Translations under genes and position numbers: made by a program
The notes under the pieces: generated by a model
Databases searched by the model: none
What the model was told of the DNA's origin: nothing
Seen by the model: only the letters and a program-made list of their open reading frames with translations
Source: Candidatus Gallimonas intestinigallinarum
GTDB taxonomy: Bacteria; Bacillota_A; Clostridia; Christensenellales; Borkfalkiaceae
Reading direction: 5' to 3'
DNA length: 10,132 nucleotides
Assembly: GCA_019116405.1 (NCBI GenBank)
Contig: DXBS01000056.1
Span: forward strand, 1-10,132
Part shown: in pieces, positions 612-7,583 of the stretch
Layout of the letters: each line of letters starts with the position of its first letter
Position numbering within the stretch: the stretch's first letter is position 1

Positions 612-3600
612 TTGAACGGAGTCGGTCGCGGAGAAAACAAACAGAATAAAAATGTGGGCGCACTCCTGACGCGGGAGACGATCGGCATGACGCTGCTCTT
701 GTTCAGCGCCGTCATGCTGTTTATCTGCGTCACGGGCGGCGCGGTCTTCGGTGAGATCGGCGTAGCGATCACGGCATTTTTTGTGGGACTTGCGGGATTT
801 TTCGTCTACCCGCTTCTTGTGCTGCTGCTCTATTTCTCGTTCGTGCTCGTCTTCGGAAAGAAGCCCATTCCTGCACGCTGGATCGCCCGCGTGTACTTCC
901 TGCTCGCCGCGATCTTTCTCATTGTGCAGACGGCGACGGCGGAGCCCTACTTTTCGCTTGGGTTCGGCGGCTATATGAACGCCTGCTGGACGGCGGCGGG
1001 GGAGGGGATCTCCGGCGGCACGGGCGGCGGCGTCCTGCTCGGGCTCATCGCCTATCCCGTCCGCGCCATTCTCTCGGGCGTGGGCGCATACATTCTCTAC
1101 GCACTGCTCATCGTGCTCGCGCTCTATCTCATCGCGCTGGATACCCCCCTGCGCGCGCTCATTCTTCCCTCTGCGCGCAGGCGCCCCGAAAAGCGGCGCA
1201 GGCAGGAGGGCGTCTCGTTTGACGATCTGCCCGAGCCTTCCCGTGCATCCGCGCGGCAGGAGGCCCCTGCAGCGCCCGCGGAGGCGGTCGCGCCGACCGA
1301 TGTGCCGATTTCTGCGGGCTACGGTGCGCCCGGCTATCAGCCGCCCACCTATCCCGGGGCGTACGTCGCACCTGCACCCGAGCCCGCTCCCTACGGCGGC
1401 TATGCCGAGCAGACAAAGCCCAAGGTGCAGCCGCCGCTCTCCGCACAGGACGCCTACGAGCGCAGCCGTGCCATCCTCTTTGACACCGACCCCGCAAGCG
1501 ACTATAAAAACAATCTCATCTTTGACCGCGATTCGCGCTTCAACACCTATCCGCGCCGTTCGAGCGTGGGGCCTTCGGGTACGGCGGCGGACGCGGGCAA
1601 GACTGCGGCGCGTTCCGATGCGAGCGAGGATTCGTCCGACGTGAGCTATACCGAACGGTATCTCTCCCAGACGGAGTCCTCCCGCCCCGTCATGCCCAAG
1701 CGCGTGACACAGGAGCGGCCCGCCTCCGCCATCGGGCAGGACGACTTCAACTATCCGCAGTCGCCCTCCTATCGCGCGCCCTCCATTCCGCTCTATCCGA
1801 CGCACGATTACTATGCGAACGACGTCCCGTACGATGCGTCCAATCAGACGGAGGATCTCCCTGCGCCCGAACCCAAACAGGAGTGGTCGGCGCAGACGGC
1901 AAGACCTTCGTATACGCCCTATGCCTACCCGCAGCCTGCGCCCGAACCTGTTTCGGACGAGCCTGCGCGCAACGGAACAGATTTTGAGTCCGTGCGCGGT
2001 GCGGCAATGCCCGCGCCGGAGCCGGAGCCTGCGCCCAAAGCGCAGCCCGCGCCCGCGCCTGTTTTCCGGCCGGAGCCGGAGATTGCGCCCAAGGCGGAAC
2101 CTGCGCCCGAAATGCCGGAGCGCGTTTCCTACCTCGATCCCGTCAAATCGGGCGAGATCGATGCGCAGCCGACGCCCTCCGCGCCCGCTGACCCCGAGCC
2201 GTCTGCGCCCGCCTATCCCACGCAGCCCTCGCCCTATGCCCGCCGCGAGACGCCCGCGCAGCAGGAACCCTCGTACGATTCCAAGGCGCGCGAGCGGGAG
2301 TTCAGGAGCATCTTTGCCCGTCCCGTGGAGGAGCGCACGCGCGTTGAGGATACGCCCTCGTCCGTGCCGCCGGAGCGCTTTGACAGGACCAAGCTCAGCC
2401 GCGCGGACCGCTTTGAAATGCCCGAGCCGCAGGAGGATCCCATCGCCGACCGCGGGCGGGACGTCTTTGAGCGTTCGCCCGCGGAGGACGCGCCCTCCGC
2501 GCAGAGCCGCGTGTACGATGCACCCGTTCCCTCGGCGGCAAACCTGTTCGATAACGACGCCGAGATGGACGACGCGGACTACCGCGAAGAACCCGCCCTG
2601 CCTGTGCCGTCCGCACGCGAAAGGGGCGAAAGGGCCCGCACGCGCACGCCGCGCGGCGTCGATGCGCGCGAGTTTTCCGAGGCGCCCGAGGAGAGCAAGC
2701 CCGCGCCTCAGCCCAAGAAACACAAGTATCAGGCATATGTCCGCCCCAGCGTGGACAATCTTGACCGCTATGACGACAATGTGCGCATCTCCCAGGAGGA
2801 GATCGAACAAAATTCCGAGATCATCCTCGATACCCTGCAGGGCTTCCGTGTGGACGCCGAAGTCGTCAAAGTGACCATCGGCTCCGCCGTCACCCGCTAC
2901 GATATCGATATCCCGCGCAACATTGCGGTGCGCTCTGTCATCAAGCGCGATGCCGAGATCGCGATGCGTCTGCACGCGCGCGACGGCGTCAATATCTACT
3001 CCAACTCCGAGGTGGGTGCGATCTCCGTCGAAGTCCCCAACTCCGTCCGCGCGACGGTGGGGCTGCGCTCGGTCATGGAGGCGCCCGAATATGTGAACGG
3101 CAAGCCCAATTCCCTGATGTTTGCCATCGGCAAGGACGTCGAGGGGCGCAACGTGTGCGGCAATATCGTCAAGATGAAGCACCTGCTCGTCGCCGGCGCG
3201 ACGGGCTCGGGCAAGTCGGTGTGCCTCAACTCCATGCTCATCAGCCTCATCTGCAAGTATTCGCCCGAGGAACTGCGGCTCATCCTCATCGACCCCAAAA
3301 AGGTGGAGTTCGCCGTGTTCGACGGGCTGCCGCACCTGATGATCAACGAGATCATCGCCGACGCGCAGAAGGCGGTTGCCGCGCTCAACTGGGCGATCAA
3401 GGAGATGGAGCGCCGCTATACCCTCTTCGAGCAGAAGACGCGCAGCGGCTCCAACGTGCACAATCTGGACGAGTACAACGCCTCCATTACAGACGGAGAG
3501 GAAAAGCTTCCCAAGATCGTCATCGTCGTGGACGAGCTCGCCGACCTGATGTCCGTCGCCAAGAAGGACATCGAGGACCGCATCCAGCGCCTCGCACAGA

Positions 3601-4205
3601 AGGCGCGCGCGGCGGGCATGCACCTCGTCATTGCGACGCAGCGCCCCTCGGTGGACGTCATCACGGGCGTCATCAAGGGAAATCTTCCCACGCGGCTCGC
3701 CTTCCGCGTCGTGCAGGAAGTGGACTCCCGCACCATTCTCGATGAATCGGGCGCGGAAAAACTGCTGGGTCTTGGCGATATGCTCTATCGCACCGAGGGC
3801 ATGTACAGCTGCCTGCGCGTGCAGGGCGCGTTCATCGACTCCAAGGAAGTCCAGCGCGTCGTTGAGGATATCAAGGCGAACAACGAGGCATATTTCGACG
3901 AGTCCGTTGCAGACTATATCAACAAGACGGAGGGCGGCGCGAGCGGCGGCGGTGACGACGATGCAGACGGCGGCGCGGTCGATCCGCAGTACATCAAGGC
4001 GCTCGCCATCGTGGTCAAGCTGGGCTCGGCGTCCATTTCACTCATCCAGCGCAAGTGCTCGGTCGGCTACAACCATGCAGGCAAGATCATCGAATGGATG
4101 GAGCTCATGGGCTACATCTCGCCCTTTGACGGCAAGGCAAAGGCGCGCACCGTCCTTCTTACCAAGGAAGACTTTGAAGCAAAATACGGAGACATTGACG
4201 GATGA
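612..4205 (+). CDS. ftsK: DNA translocase FtsK/SpoIIIE with an unusually long Pro/Ala/Glu-rich linker
   Basis: This is a septum-anchored, ATP-driven DNA pump that moves chromosomes during division and, in spore formers, into the forespore. Residues 23-176 hold four or five hydrophobic membrane segments (about 23-45, 50-82, 90-108, 139-176). Residues about 188-700 are a low-complexity, probably disordered linker rich in Pro, Ala, Glu, Ser and Tyr, including PEPAP-like repeats near 467-503. The motor follows: the alpha region from about 714, Walker A GATGSGKS at 862-869 (K868), Walker B with D974-E975 in VVDELADL, and ATQRPSVDVITGVIKGNLP from 1008. The C-terminal gamma winged-helix domain is at 1121-1196, after a Gly/Asp linker. 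At 1197 aa it is much longer than B. subtilis SpoIIIE (about 790), nearly all because of the linker. The start is TTG with a good Shine-Dalgarno site; the stop overlaps the rimO start (ATGA). The name spoIIIE would fit equally well. Confidence 0.95.
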   Translation: MNGVGRGENKQNKNVGALLTRETIGMTLLLFSAVMLFICVTGGAVFGEIGVAITAFFVGLAGFFVYPLLVLLLYFSFVLVFGKKPIPARWIARVYFLLAAIFLIVQTATAEPYFSLGFGGYMNACWTAAGEGISGGTGGGVLLGLIAYPVRAILSGVGAYILYALLIVLALYLIALDTPLRALILPSARRRPEKRRRQEGVSFDDLPEPSRASARQEAPAAPAEAVAPTDVPISAGYGAPGYQPPTYPGAYVAPAPEPAPYGGYAEQTKPKVQPPLSAQDAYERSRAILFDTDPASDYKNNLIFDRDSRFNTYPRRSSVGPSGTAADAGKTAARSDASEDSSDVSYTERYLSQTESSRPVMPKRVTQERPASAIGQDDFNYPQSPSYRAPSIPLYPTHDYYANDVPYDASNQTEDLPAPEPKQEWSAQTARPSYTPYAYPQPAPEPVSDEPARNGTDFESVRGAAMPAPEPEPAPKAQPAPAPVFRPEPEIAPKAEPAPEMPERVSYLDPVKSGEIDAQPTPSAPADPEPSAPAYPTQPSPYARRETPAQQEPSYDSKAREREFRSIFARPVEERTRVEDTPSSVPPERFDRTKLSRADRFEMPEPQEDPIADRGRDVFERSPAEDAPSAQSRVYDAPVPSAANLFDNDAEMDDADYREEPALPVPSARERGERARTRTPRGVDAREFSEAPEESKPAPQPKKHKYQAYVRPSVDNLDRYDDNVRISQEEIEQNSEIILDTLQGFRVDAEVVKVTIGSAVTRYDIDIPRNIAVRSVIKRDAEIAMRLHARDGVNIYSNSEVGAISVEVPNSVRATVGLRSVMEAPEYVNGKPNSLMFAIGKDVEGRNVCGNIVKMKHLLVAGATGSGKSVCLNSMLISLICKYSPEELRLILIDPKKVEFAVFDGLPHLMINEIIADAQKAVAALNWAIKEMERRYTLFEQKTRSGSNVHNLDEYNASITDGEEKLPKIVIVVDELADLMSVAKKDIEDRIQRLAQKARAAGMHLVIATQRPSVDVITGVIKGNLPTRLAFRVVQEVDSRTILDESGAEKLLGLGDMLYRTEGMYSCLRVQGAFIDSKEVQRVVEDIKANNEAYFDESVADYINKTEGGASGGGDDDADGGAVDPQYIKALAIVVKLGSASISLIQRKCSVGYNHAGKIIEWMELMGYISPFDGKAKARTVLLTKEDFEAKYGDIDG
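3972..4199 (+). repeat. FtsK gamma domain, copy 1 (C-terminus of FtsK)
   Basis: This segment encodes FtsK residues 1121-1196, from GAVDPQYIK to KYGDID, and is the native gamma winged-helix domain that reads polarity sequences such as KOPS or SRS. It has a paralogous copy at 6224-6451. GC content by hand count is 129 of 228 (57%). The recognition-helix region reads QRKCSVGYNHAGKIIEWME. Confidence 0.9.
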
Positions 4206-5506
4206 ACAAGGTATTCGGCATGATCTCCCTCGGCTGTGACAAGAACCGCGTGGACGGCGAACGGCTGCTGGGCGAGGTCCGCCGCCACGGCTGTCCCATC
4301 ACGGACGATATTCAACAAGCGCAGGTGCTCATCGTCAACACCTGCGCCTTCCTGAATGATGCGCGGAAGGAGGCGATCGAAGCCATTCTCGAGGGCAATT
4401 CCAACCGCAGCGGAAAGCTGGAAAAGATCGTCGTCGCAGGGTGTCTTCCCGAAAAGTTCGTCGATGAACTCTATCCCGCACTGACGGAAGGGGACGTCTT
4501 TCTGGGTGTTTCGGATTGCTCCGAACTCTTTCCCGCTCTCGAGCGCGCCTATGCGGGCGAGCGCGTCAACGCCGTCCATACGGGCTGCGAGGGGGGTGAG
4601 CGCGTCATCACCACGCCGCCTCACCTCAAGTACTTAAAGATCGCCGACGGCTGCTGCAATCACTGTACATACTGCCTCATCCCCGCCATCCGCGGCAAGT
4701 ACCGCTCCTATCCCATGGAACAGCTCATCGCGGAGGCGAAAAGCCTCGGGGACACGCACGAGCTGGTGCTCGTCGCGCAGGATACGACGCGCTACGGCGT
4801 GGACACGGGCGAAAATTTATTTGTGCCTCTGCTCAAAAAACTTTCTGAACTTGACAACATCTGTCATATTCGTCTGCTATACTGTTATCCGGAAGTGGTC
4901 ACGGACGAACTCATCGCCGAGGTGCGCGACAATCCCAAGATCATCAAGTACCTCGATATCCCGCTCCAGCACAGCGAGGACAGGGTATTGAAGCTGATGG
5001 GGCGGCGGGGCACGCGTGAGAGCTACTTGCAGCTCATTCAAAAGCTGCGCCGCGAGATCTCCGGCATCGCGCTGCGCTCTACCTTCATCGCGGGCTTTCC
5101 GACCGAGACGGAGAAGGAAGTCGAGGGGCTGAAAGAGTTCCTCAGCAAGGCGCGCTTTGAAAACTGCGGCTTCTTCGCCTATTCGCGCGAGGAGGGGACG
5201 CCCGCCTACAAACTCAAAGGACAGATCCCCGCCCGCACCAAGCAGCGCCGCGTCAGGGCGCTCTACAAGGTGCAGGAGGCGATCGCGGACGAGTACCTTG
5301 CGTCCTTTGTCGGGAAAACCGTGCGCGTCGTGTGCGACGAAGTAGACTTTGCGCGCGGCTGTTTTGTCGGCAGGACATACTTTCAGGCGTACGGCGTGGA
5401 CGGCGTGACTTATTTTACCGCCCCGCATGCGACGACGGGCGAGGAATACGACGTCGTCATCGAACGCACAAAGGCAGGAAATCTCATCGGACAGGCGAAG
5501 GAGTAA
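4202..5506 (+). CDS. rimO: Ribosomal protein S12 methylthiotransferase RimO
   Basis: RimO is a radical-SAM enzyme that adds a methylthio group to a conserved aspartate of ribosomal protein S12. The order of domains is standard: an N-terminal UPF0004/MTTase domain with cluster cysteines C12 (in SLGCDKNRVDGE, the RimO version of the motif), C48 (VNTCAFLND) and C81 (AGCLPEKF); the radical-SAM CxxxCxxC motif at C151, C155 and C158 (GCCNHCTYCLIPAIRG); and a C-terminal TRAM-like domain from about 370. The SLGCxKNxVD motif favours RimO over MiaB and MtaB. The length of 434 aa is normal for the family. The ATG overlaps the ftsK stop by 4 nt, with GGAG about 10 nt upstream inside ftsK, so translation is probably coupled to ftsK. 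The gene is intact and its codon use is like its neighbours. Confidence 0.95.
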   Translation: MNKVFGMISLGCDKNRVDGERLLGEVRRHGCPITDDIQQAQVLIVNTCAFLNDARKEAIEAILEGNSNRSGKLEKIVVAGCLPEKFVDELYPALTEGDVFLGVSDCSELFPALERAYAGERVNAVHTGCEGGERVITTPPHLKYLKIADGCCNHCTYCLIPAIRGKYRSYPMEQLIAEAKSLGDTHELVLVAQDTTRYGVDTGENLFVPLLKKLSELDNICHIRLLYCYPEVVTDELIAEVRDNPKIIKYLDIPLQHSEDRVLKLMGRRGTRESYLQLIQKLRREISGIALRSTFIAGFPTETEKEVEGLKEFLSKARFENCGFFAYSREEGTPAYKLKGQIPARTKQRRVRALYKVQEAIADEYLASFVGKTVRVVCDEVDFARGCFVGRTYFQAYGVDGVTYFTAPHATTGEEYDVVIERTKAGNLIGQAKE

Positions 5507-5509
5507 GCT

Positions 5510-6475
5510 ATGAATCTTCCCAATAAAATTACGTTGACGCGCATTTTCATGATCCCCGTGTTCGTCCTCTTCTTCTATCTGGACGTTATGGACGGGTGGA
5601 ATTATCTCATTGCGGCGATCGTCTTTGTTCTCGCCGCCGCAACGGACGCGCTGGACGGTCACATTGCCCGCAGCCGCAACCTGGTCACCAACCTCGGCAA
5701 GTTCCTCGATCCCATCGCGGACAAGGTGCTCGTCGCCACGGCGTTCATCCTGCTGTTGACGCGCATGGAGGCGTTCTATGCGCCTTTCTACATCTTCAAC
5801 GGCGGGAGCGTTGCTGCGGTGCTCGACGCAAGCTATGCAATGACCGTGGTAGCCGGCGTTTGCGTCGCGCTCATCATGACGCGCGAGCTCATCGTCAGCG
5901 GCTTCCGCATGGTCGCCGCCGAGAGAAAGCTCGTCATCGCGGCGGATAAACTGGGCAAGGTCAAGACGACCTGTCAGGACGCTGCCATCGCCTTCCTTTT
6001 GGTCGGGCTGAGTTTCTCAGGCAGCACGGCGGGACAGGCGATCGGCTTTATCGGGATCGTGCTCTTCTTTGCCTGCACCGTCCTCACCGTCCTCTCGGGC
6101 GTCAACTATATTGTCAAAAACAGGCAGGTCCTCACCGAGGAGAAGGGGGAGACGCAGGCGCATTCCGATGGGGCGGCTGCGGATACTGTCAGCAAAGCGG
6201 CAAACAGCGCAGGCGGCGTTGACGGCGCAGTCGAACCGTACTATATCAAAGTCCTTGCAGCTGTCATCAAATACGATGTCGTATCCCTTTCGATGATTCA
6301 ACGAAAGTGTGATATCGGCTATATAAAAGCGTGCAGAGCCGTCGAATGGTTGGAGAAGTCGGGATATATTTCGCCTTTTGACGAAAACGCAAAGACACGC
6401 ACCATCCTTTTCACAAAAGAGGACTTTGAAGCAAAATACGGAGATATTGACAAATACGGGGAGCAGAACGAATGA
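5510..6475 (+). CDS. pgsA: Phosphatidylglycerophosphate synthase PgsA fused to a C-terminal FtsK gamma domain
   Basis: PgsA makes phosphatidylglycerophosphate from CDP-diacylglycerol and glycerol-3-phosphate in the cytoplasmic membrane, the committed step to phosphatidylglycerol and cardiolipin. The start MNLPNKITLTRIFMIPVF is typical. The CDP-alcohol phosphotransferase motif D-x2-D-G-x2-A-R-x8-G-x3-D-x3-D is complete: D46, D49, G50, A53, R54, G63, D67, D71. Several membrane helices extend to about residue 203, where a normal PgsA (roughly 190-200 aa) would end. The frame then continues without a break through an Ala/Ser/Asp linker (about 208-238) into a gamma winged-helix domain (239-314) very like that of the FtsK encoded upstream, and ends at 321. 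AAGGAG lies 6 nt before the ATG, and the gap from rimO is 3 nt. The core assignment is firm and the fusion is read directly; a role for the tail is unknown. PgsA termini are expected on the cytosolic side, so the tail could reach DNA. Confidence 0.93.
   Translation: MNLPNKITLTRIFMIPVFVLFFYLDVMDGWNYLIAAIVFVLAAATDALDGHIARSRNLVTNLGKFLDPIADKVLVATAFILLLTRMEAFYAPFYIFNGGSVAAVLDASYAMTVVAGVCVALIMTRELIVSGFRMVAAERKLVIAADKLGKVKTTCQDAAIAFLLVGLSFSGSTAGQAIGFIGIVLFFACTVLTVLSGVNYIVKNRQVLTEEKGETQAHSDGAAADTVSKAANSAGGVDGAVEPYYIKVLAAVIKYDVVSLSMIQRKCDIGYIKACRAVEWLEKSGYISPFDENAKTRTILFTKEDFEAKYGDIDKYGEQNE
6224..6451 (+). repeat. FtsK gamma domain, copy 2, embedded as the C-terminus of PgsA
   Basis: PgsA residues 239-314 align without gaps to FtsK residues 1121-1196. 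I count 49 identities in 76 positions, including YISPFD, the core IQRKC and the final 13 residues TKEDFEAKYGDID. GC content by hand count is 100 of 228 (44%), against 57% for the FtsK copy and a GC-rich background. The last part is also close at the DNA level: both copies contain gactttgaagcaaaatacgg. The recognition-helix region reads QRKCDIGYIKACRAVEWLE, so the fold looks intact, but some likely DNA-contact positions differ from the FtsK copy. Confidence 0.9.
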
Positions 6476-6476: not shown

Positions 6477-6507
6477 TGATCCTGAGCAGAAGGGGGAGCA
6501 GGCGTGA
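6472..6507 (+). other. 11-codon mini-ORF bridging pgsA and cinA
   Basis: ATG at 6472 overlaps the pgsA stop as ATGA, and its TGA at 6505-6507 overlaps the GTG start of cinA as GTGA. The encoded peptide is MIDPEQKGEQA. It has no clear Shine-Dalgarno site of its own. It could pass ribosomes from pgsA to cinA by termination and reinitiation, or it may be chance. I see no reason to call it a functional peptide. Confidence 0.2.
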
Positions 6508-7583
6508 AATACGCGGGCATCGTCCTTCGCAACAGCAAAAATTCGCTTACGTCTGTGGCGGCGGCACCCGTCTTTGACGCGCTCCTGTCGGGCGGCGTCT
6601 TTGTGGACGAGATCGAAGTGCTCGCCTACGATGCGCCCAGCAAGGTTTCCTCCGCGCTCCTGCGGCTCTCCACCGAGTGCGACGGCGTGTTCCTCGTGTG
6701 CGCGCCCGCGCTCATCGCCTCCGCAAGGGACGCGGTCGCTGTCGCCGCAGAGGAGACGTTTACGGAGGAAAACATTTTAGAGACGGGCGACTGCCTGTTC
6801 GCCGTCCTGCCCGAGGGGGAGCGCGGCGCGCAGATCGTTAAAACGCAGGTCGTACCCCGCATCGACAAGCGGCGGCACAAGTCGTACGCGCGCGTCGTCC
6901 TGTGCACCTGTTCCGCCCCGCGCGACGTCATTCAGACCGCCGTAAAACAGGCGGAGGAGGCGGGCGGCGGCAAGCTCTCCCTGCACGCGACGGAGGAGTA
7001 CGGCTGCGCGCGCATCGAGGTCATCTACGACCAGGAGACGCCCAAGATGGTCGCCGACGAGGTCGTGCGCATCCTCGCCACCGCGCTCAAAGACTACCTC
7101 TACGCGATGGAGGATATGACGCTCGCAGAGCGGCTCGTCTCGGCGCTCAAGCTGCACAGGCTGCGCATTTCGACGGCGGAGTCCTTCACGGCGGGCGGCG
7201 TGGGGCGCGCCATCGTGCAGGTTCCGGGCGCGAGCGCCGTGTTCTTCGAGGGCATCAACGCCTATGATAACAAGGCAAAGCGGGAACGCCTCGGCGTCGG
7301 GGAATTTACCCTGATGGGCAAGGGCGCCGTGTCCGACGAGGTCGCCTATGAGATGGCTGCGGGGCTGTTAAAGCAGGGCAACTGCGACGTGGCGATCGCA
7401 ACAACCGGCATCGCCGGTCCCGATGCGGACGGCACCAACAAGCCCGTCGGGCTGTGTTATATCGCTGCCGGCACGCGGGAAAAAGTGCGCGTGTTCCGCT
7501 TCCGGCTCTCGGGCGATCGGGAGATGGTCACGCGGACGGCGATCAATCTGGCGCTGTTCCTCGCGTACCGGGAAATTTCATGA
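6504..7583 (+). CDS. cinA: CinA-family protein: nicotinamide-nucleotide amidase domain with a degenerate N-terminal MoCF domain
   Basis: Residues about 205-359 form the CinA C-terminal (PncC-type) domain, which hydrolyses nicotinamide mononucleotide to nicotinate mononucleotide in NAD salvage. Visible motifs are TAESFTAGG (224-232; the usual form is AESCTGG), VPGASAVFFEGINAYDNKAK (240-259), GAVSDEVA (274-281) and TGIAGPDADGTNKPVG (301-316). Residues about 125-200 resemble the middle KH-like region of CinA. The first 120 residues occupy the place of the MoCF/COG1058 domain but lack its GTELLxGxxxNTN and GGLGPTxDD motifs, although LFAVLPEGERGAQIVKTQVV may be its remnant. The length of 359 aa is below the usual 410-420. 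The GTG start has AAGGGGGAG (6490-6498) 5 nt upstream, and an in-frame TGA at 6477-6479 rules out a longer form. cinA next to recA is a classic Firmicutes arrangement. Confidence 0.88.
   Translation: MKYAGIVLRNSKNSLTSVAAAPVFDALLSGGVFVDEIEVLAYDAPSKVSSALLRLSTECDGVFLVCAPALIASARDAVAVAAEETFTEENILETGDCLFAVLPEGERGAQIVKTQVVPRIDKRRHKSYARVVLCTCSAPRDVIQTAVKQAEEAGGGKLSLHATEEYGCARIEVIYDQETPKMVADEVVRILATALKDYLYAMEDMTLAERLVSALKLHRLRISTAESFTAGGVGRAIVQVPGASAVFFEGINAYDNKAKRERLGVGEFTLMGKGAVSDEVAYEMAAGLLKQGNCDVAIATTGIAGPDADGTNKPVGLCYIAAGTREKVRVFRFRLSGDREMVTRTAINLALFLAYREIS

Follow-up and report, generated by a model that had tools for sequence, protein, structure and literature searches.

What could an FtsK gamma domain be doing on a membrane enzyme of phospholipid synthesis? 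The question is raised by one gene in the stretch of 10,132 nt analysed here (the window), where the gene order is ftsK-rimO-pgsA-cinA-recA and the pgsA frame continues through a winged-helix domain. The features of the locus, all on the + strand, are:

612..4205, +, ftsK (open frame and Pfam; start codon not certain)
3971..4199, +, gamma-coding 3' end of the window ftsK, paralogue of the tail (PF09397 in FtsK residues 1123-1183; DNA alignment)
4202..5506, +, rimO-like radical SAM gene (open frame and Pfam)
5510..6475, +, pgsA-gamma fusion gene, 321 aa (open frame with ATG start; two Pfam domains)
5510..6160, +, PgsA enzyme part, residues 1-217 (end set at the stop point of the unfused L019 PgsA, ...KGETQA)
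5645..5722, +, catalytic motif, residues 46-71 (residues invariant in the fused alignment)
6137..6160, +, left copy of the imperfect direct repeat flanking the inserted stretch (local alignment)
6140..6229, +, linker, residues 211-240, predicted disordered (pLDDT <50 at 211-240)
6223..6451, +, stretch alignable as DNA to ftsK 3971-4199 (DNA alignment)
6230..6472, +, FtsK gamma winged helix and C-terminal tail, residues 241-321
6484..6504, +, right copy of the flanking repeat, into the cinA start (local alignment; empty site in L019 and L001)
6504..7583, +, cinA (open frame and Pfam)

An intact PgsA continues into a complete gamma domain

The 321-aa product matched CDP-OH_P_transf (PF01066) at residues 1-185 (E 2.4e-38) and FtsK_gamma (PF09397) at residues 242-301, covering profile positions 4-62 of 63 (E 9.3e-13) with a score of 48.1 bits, above the curated cut-off of 30.6. 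The FtsK/SpoIIIE motor domain (PF01580) was absent from the Pfam matches, which consisted of PF01066 and PF09397 alone. D46, D49, G50, A53, R54, G63, D67 and D71, the eight residues of the stretch D46-D71 that we take to be the catalytic motif of CDP-alcohol phosphatidyltransferases, were all present. A sequence-only reading of this DNA had described an intact PgsA and a complete gamma domain in one frame, expected both Pfam matches and placed the gene two genes after ftsK, and the open frame, the Pfam scan and the gene order agree with it on these points. In the predicted structure the enzyme part adopts a PgsA fold and the tail a winged helix like 2ve9, its gamma fold agreeing with the KOPS-bound crystal.

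Known PgsA enzymes (phosphatidylglycerophosphate synthase; 7drj, 7drk) stop after the last membrane helix, whereas the window protein adds a linker and a winged helix. With the gamma domains of FtsK/SpoIIIE (PF09397; 2ve8, 2ve9, 2j5o, 2j5p) the tail shares sequence, fold and descent from an ftsK 3' end, but it is carried by a motorless lipid enzyme, N1296 is lost in the window, and the KOPS triad is mostly gone in the other fused tails. The earlier reader knew of no described PgsA with a gamma domain, and we likewise found no description of such a protein in the open-licence literature, judged mostly from listings.

The fusion is carried by a second protein and is young in its group

A protein found in our searches, P0001, shared 98% identity with the window protein across the full 321 aa, with no difference at residues 236-318 of the query, and its cluster was listed with 147 member sequences. 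The full-length fusion thus recurs in P0001, and the join is no artefact of a single record. Of the loci with genome context, the two nearest, L019 and L001, were unfused; their PgsA was 86-88% and their FtsK gamma 99% identical to those of the window, and their pgsA genes stop after ...KGETQA (L019) and ...KEQA (L001), both overlapping the cinA start. Taken alone, these unfused neighbours would favour a misassembly or frameshift error that joined two genes, an explanation which we reject in view of P0001 and its large cluster and to which we give a close to negligible chance. Absence of the fusion from all close relatives had been named beforehand as a refutation; it is absent from L001 and L019 and present in P0001. 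A contig scan gave a gamma match 3' of pgsA in 0 of 41 loci. With the nearest loci also unfused, the window fusion is young within its group, which includes records named Candidatus Gallimonas. Among the matches listed in a protein search with the gamma part alone there were P0001 and two FtsK pieces only.

The tail was copied from the 3' end of ftsK

By DNA comparison the sequences most similar to the tail were ftsK 3' ends from its own subgroup, with 82.7% identity to L019 ftsK over 110 nt, including an exact 36-nt run, and 80% identity to the window's own ftsK over the same 110 nt. This match shows that the tail was copied from an ftsK 3' end of this lineage, and the earlier suggestion of a tie to ftsK is thereby supported. 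At the protein level the tail was 61% identical to the window's own FtsK gamma, whereas the FtsK gammas in loci L001-L014 and L019 were 84-99% identical to it; divergence of the copy was thus rapid. The inserted stretch is flanked by imperfect copies of the old pgsA end, with the cinA start left intact. Their alignment scored 15, compared with a mean of 8.5 and a maximum of 17 in 2000 shuffles, and the pair 6137-6160/6484-6504 was not listed by a separate repeat search; insertion between repeat copies of the old pgsA end is likely by position, the repeat score alone being insufficient.

Other sources for the tail were considered. Third-position GC of the gamma part (window 6215-6472) was 0.51, below all 215 comparison windows of neighbouring genes, and a foreign origin on this ground was rejected because the L001 FtsK gamma, at 0.52, speaks against it. 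The first gamma-domain tree placed the tail among Gallimonas-type FtsK gammas (support 87, not starred), and gamma-domain trees, which have too few columns, rejected none of four groupings (p-AU 0.58-0.92). Nor did the tree reject an origin among other gamma proteins, those of the GYIxxC class; what argues against that origin is the tail's match to ftsK as DNA. L010 (6078-6545) and L113 (2414-2878) each have a small free-standing gamma frame of 155 aa just 3' of ftsK; these frames look like an intermediate product of copying the ftsK end.

The same kind of fusion appears to have arisen several times

A search for the two-domain architecture in relatives showed that the fusion recurs in several clades of the order. 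Protein searches returned the best 120 of at most 8000 scored candidates, and among the 120 best rows of the profile search P0001, P0043, P0044, P0123 and P0124 were fused besides the window (Pfam checked). P0043 is a PgsA with two consecutive gamma domains, at residues 212-280 and 316-384, whose KOPS-site residues differ from each other. Among the matches listed, G455, G775, G606 and G773 carried the fusion in one family of the same order (at least 4 of 46 genomes), and G468, G425, G448, G503, G517 and G1155 in another (at least 6 of 128 genomes). Only G468, G425 and G448 were fused among the matches listed for a class sample of 167 genomes, and each of them also belongs to the order sample; no fused row was among those listed for a phylum sample of 149. 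A survey of 398 genomes found a match in 371, and none of the rows listed extended into the gamma part free of stops. The order sample of 396 genomes listed one fused row (G455), an undercount, since G425, G448, G468, G503, G517 and G606 belong to that sample yet were unlisted as fused. No gamma tail was found in the candidates G1180, G1108 and G529.

A quick tree of the PgsA core (67 rows) placed the window and P0001 among unfused relatives, in a clade of 20 rows (support 96), and P0043, P0044, P0123 and P0124 elsewhere (support 85, not starred). One ancestral fusion, modelled as a single clade of the six fused family rows, was rejected on this tree (p-AU 0.0099). In a 91-row PgsA tree, built from 28 of those rows and 63 PgsA rows from later loci, the fused label needed six changes, at least five of them forced by well-supported branches, and in a 197-row tree it needed three, at least two of them forced. 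The 91-row tree also placed the unfused P0125 among the P0043/P0044/P0123 group, which speaks against a single clean origin there. The simplest reading of these sequence trees is about five origins (the window group, the P0043 group, the G455 group, the G468 group and G1155); in formal terms, one ancient fusion with very many losses could also account for them.

The apparent making and keeping of one type of fusion several times suggests that the tail probably has a use, and its absence from most sampled genomes of the order indicates that it is dispensable for PgsA in general. In 10 of 10 genome loci tested, the fused pgsA lies directly after ftsK or after ftsK-rimO. A separate peculiarity of gene order was seen in L003, where a second FtsK-type motor (2057-3202), about 45% identical to the window motor, lies between ftsK and rimO.

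Distant tails resemble gamma domains and are under constraint

Ten G-series tails were compared with Pfam: G1155 and G517 scored above the cut-off, six were weak, and G606 and G773, the two most diverged G455-type tails, gave no match. For the G448 and G425 tails another winged-helix family scored slightly above FtsK gamma. Single profile comparisons of small alignments matched FtsK gammas with the G455-type tails (probability 97.3, score 60) and the G468-type tails (97.9, score 67); against control helices, N-terminal winged helices encoded in genomes of the same family, the tails reached only 70-78 (score 28-29). A single comparison of FtsK gammas with the control winged helices gave 96.6 (score 49.5), which speaks against full specificity. 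On balance the profile comparison supports a putative assignment of both tail types to the gamma domains. Compared with each other, the G455-type and G468-type tails reached a probability of only 56.3 (single comparison, small alignments); tails of different clades share little beyond fold, so that one common partner is not evident.

The tail is constrained in two clades, G455 and G468, less than the enzyme. For the closest G455-clade pair, G775/G606, pN and pS were 0.16 and 0.79 in the gamma part and 0.10 and 0.52 in the core. Across this clade dN/dS was 0.35-0.47 for gamma (four pairs computable) and 0.12-0.24 for the core (all six pairs), and the tail frame stays open even where PgsA has diverged to 60% identity. 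For the G468 clade, ten pairs gave pN/pS of 0.27-0.43 for gamma and 0.09-0.30 for the core. The tail was the less constrained part in every pair with both values, all these substitution ratios being rough because synonymous sites are near saturation.

The residues that read DNA have drifted

Published work names N1296, R1300 and E1303 as key KOPS residues in E. coli, with a matching three in V. cholerae (PMC2533119), and describes a KOPS-blind FtsK made by joint change of R1300, E1303 and E1306 (PMC2680272). The window tail has I, R and E at the three positions and keeps E1306, so the KOPS triad is incomplete. We compared 15 fused domains, excluding P0001, whose tail equals that of the window, and P0124, a near-copy of P0123, and counting P0043 twice, with 37 FtsK gammas of these genomes. 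N at position 1296 was found in 4/15 fused domains against 32/37 FtsK gammas, K/R at 1300 in 12/15 against 36/37, and E/D at 1303 in 6/15 against 37/37; the FtsK-type triad (N, K/R, E/D) occurred in two fused domains only, P0044 and G517. Net charge was negative in 13 of the 15, the lowest being -11, against a mean of +1.6 for FtsK gammas. This drift and the negative charge make KOPS-type reading unlikely as a common role, and the general view of the tail as a DNA-reading gamma, put forward from the sequence, is not supported. The window tail keeps more KOPS/XerD residues than most and, judged by them, may still be able to bind DNA.

Such residues are what would favour a DNA tether or sensor, in which PgsA is anchored at the nucleoid through a tail that binds DNA, KOPS/SRS-like or other, or DNA occupancy controls lipid synthesis. 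R1300, E1303 and E1306 in the window, the complete triads of P0044 and G517 and the predicted agreement with the KOPS-bound crystal all fit it, but the losses at 1296 and 1303 and the negative charge of most fused domains leave it improbable, with a small chance of being right. A second role known from E. coli is contact with XerD, which according to one study binds a gamma surface overlapping the KOPS surface, change of R1289 having the greatest effect on XerD activation among FtsK residues (PMC5052618). R1289 is kept in the window, as would suit a tail that activates or sequesters the recombinase through this surface, but it is present in only 5/15 fused domains against 37/37 FtsK gammas, and we regard this role as very improbable.

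The tail as a possible docking or switch module

The gene encodes a membrane PgsA to which a flexible linker attaches a gamma winged helix derived from FtsK. We favour, with a probability of roughly 40%, the reading that this tail is a docking or switch module linking PgsA to the FtsK/SpoIIIE zone. The tail would be cytoplasmic and would either recruit PgsA to the septal FtsK/SpoIIIE complex or allow the enzyme to sense that complex; anionic lipid would thereby be made at the site of chromosome transport and septum closure. Such a tail more probably binds a protein partner, or DNA irrespective of KOPS, than reads motifs in the manner of FtsK. The domains and fold, the descent from ftsK, the several origins, the ftsK neighbourhood in 10/10 loci, the constraint and the KOPS drift count for this reading; the weaker constraint on the tail than on the enzyme, the unlikeness of tails between clades and the many unfused genomes of the order count against it. 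SpoIIIE offers a precedent by analogy for a gamma domain that switches the enzyme to which it is joined, its own being described as regulating the attached motor in response to DNA sites (PMC4744071). A review places PgsA-GFP at the B. subtilis septum, with the means of targeting given as unknown (PMC4464175; also PMC5073135), and notes that the PgsA C-terminus is without the helices to which ClsA targeting is ascribed (PMC4464175).

The tail could instead be a by-product: with ftsK and pgsA as neighbours, the 3' end of ftsK would now and then be copied into pgsA, and the tail would be tolerated, fold and be held only by not harming an essential enzyme. The adjacency of the two genes, at most one gene apart in every locus tested, the looser constraint and wide differences of the tails, the two G455-type tails lacking a Pfam match, and the gamma domains on many other proteins of the family, which could reflect a copying habit, are all in keeping with this. 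It accounts poorly for pN/pS well below 1 in two clades, for a frame kept open while PgsA diverged to 60% identity, and for a window tail unchanged from P0001 over residues 236-318, and we consider it unlikely, with an appreciable chance of being right.

Under the docking or switch reading, PgsA would have acquired, on repeated occasions, the gamma domain of FtsK, its neighbour in the operon, coupling anionic-lipid synthesis to the DNA pump or septum, which we put forward tentatively. If true, chromosome transport and phospholipid synthesis would be covalently linked, in a lineage with gamma as a module on many proteins; that two operon neighbours were fused repeatedly hints at a functional connection between chromosome transport and anionic-lipid synthesis. 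The fusion bears on the route of PgsA to the septum, which a review describes as not settled (PMC4464175), and its separate origins are natural replicates for testing a protein partner against DNA or no function.

Gamma domains on other proteins of the family

In the family of the window, 84 of 398 genomes had two or more gamma matches, as read from the match listing. We re-listed 80 of the 84 (without G303, G322, G333 and G373) and fetched 40 regions (L084-L123, family of G001), in which 30 of 45 gamma-bearing frames were Pfam-scanned. Gamma domains were found on cpYpsA SLOG proteins (L089, L092, L094), zinc-ribbon proteins (L107, L108, L123), short FtsK-motor proteins (L099, L100, L101, L106) and, in two copies, on a leucine-rich-repeat protein (L086), all by Pfam. 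Small stand-alone gamma frames, judged by frame length, were seen in L085, L088, L103 and L122, and further bearers were long proteins without another clear domain. PgsA is one gamma host among many in this family, and these proteins are a candidate set for a shared partner.

A comparable case is reported from the Bacillus phages Sam46 and Sam112, whose small terminase has an N-terminal FtsK_gamma domain; single gamma genes are said also to occur in some phages, with unknown role (PMC8190038). As in the window, the domain has moved onto a non-FtsK protein; unlike the window, the terminase is a soluble DNA-packaging protein whose DNA-binding sites are reported as conserved (PMC8190038). In L096, L109, L112, L117, L118 and L119 we noticed by eye a seemingly common C-terminal segment, approximately LWxDExEFxxAVxERxxRLIxSDxxMGRxxAxKKAE, which carries no Pfam name.
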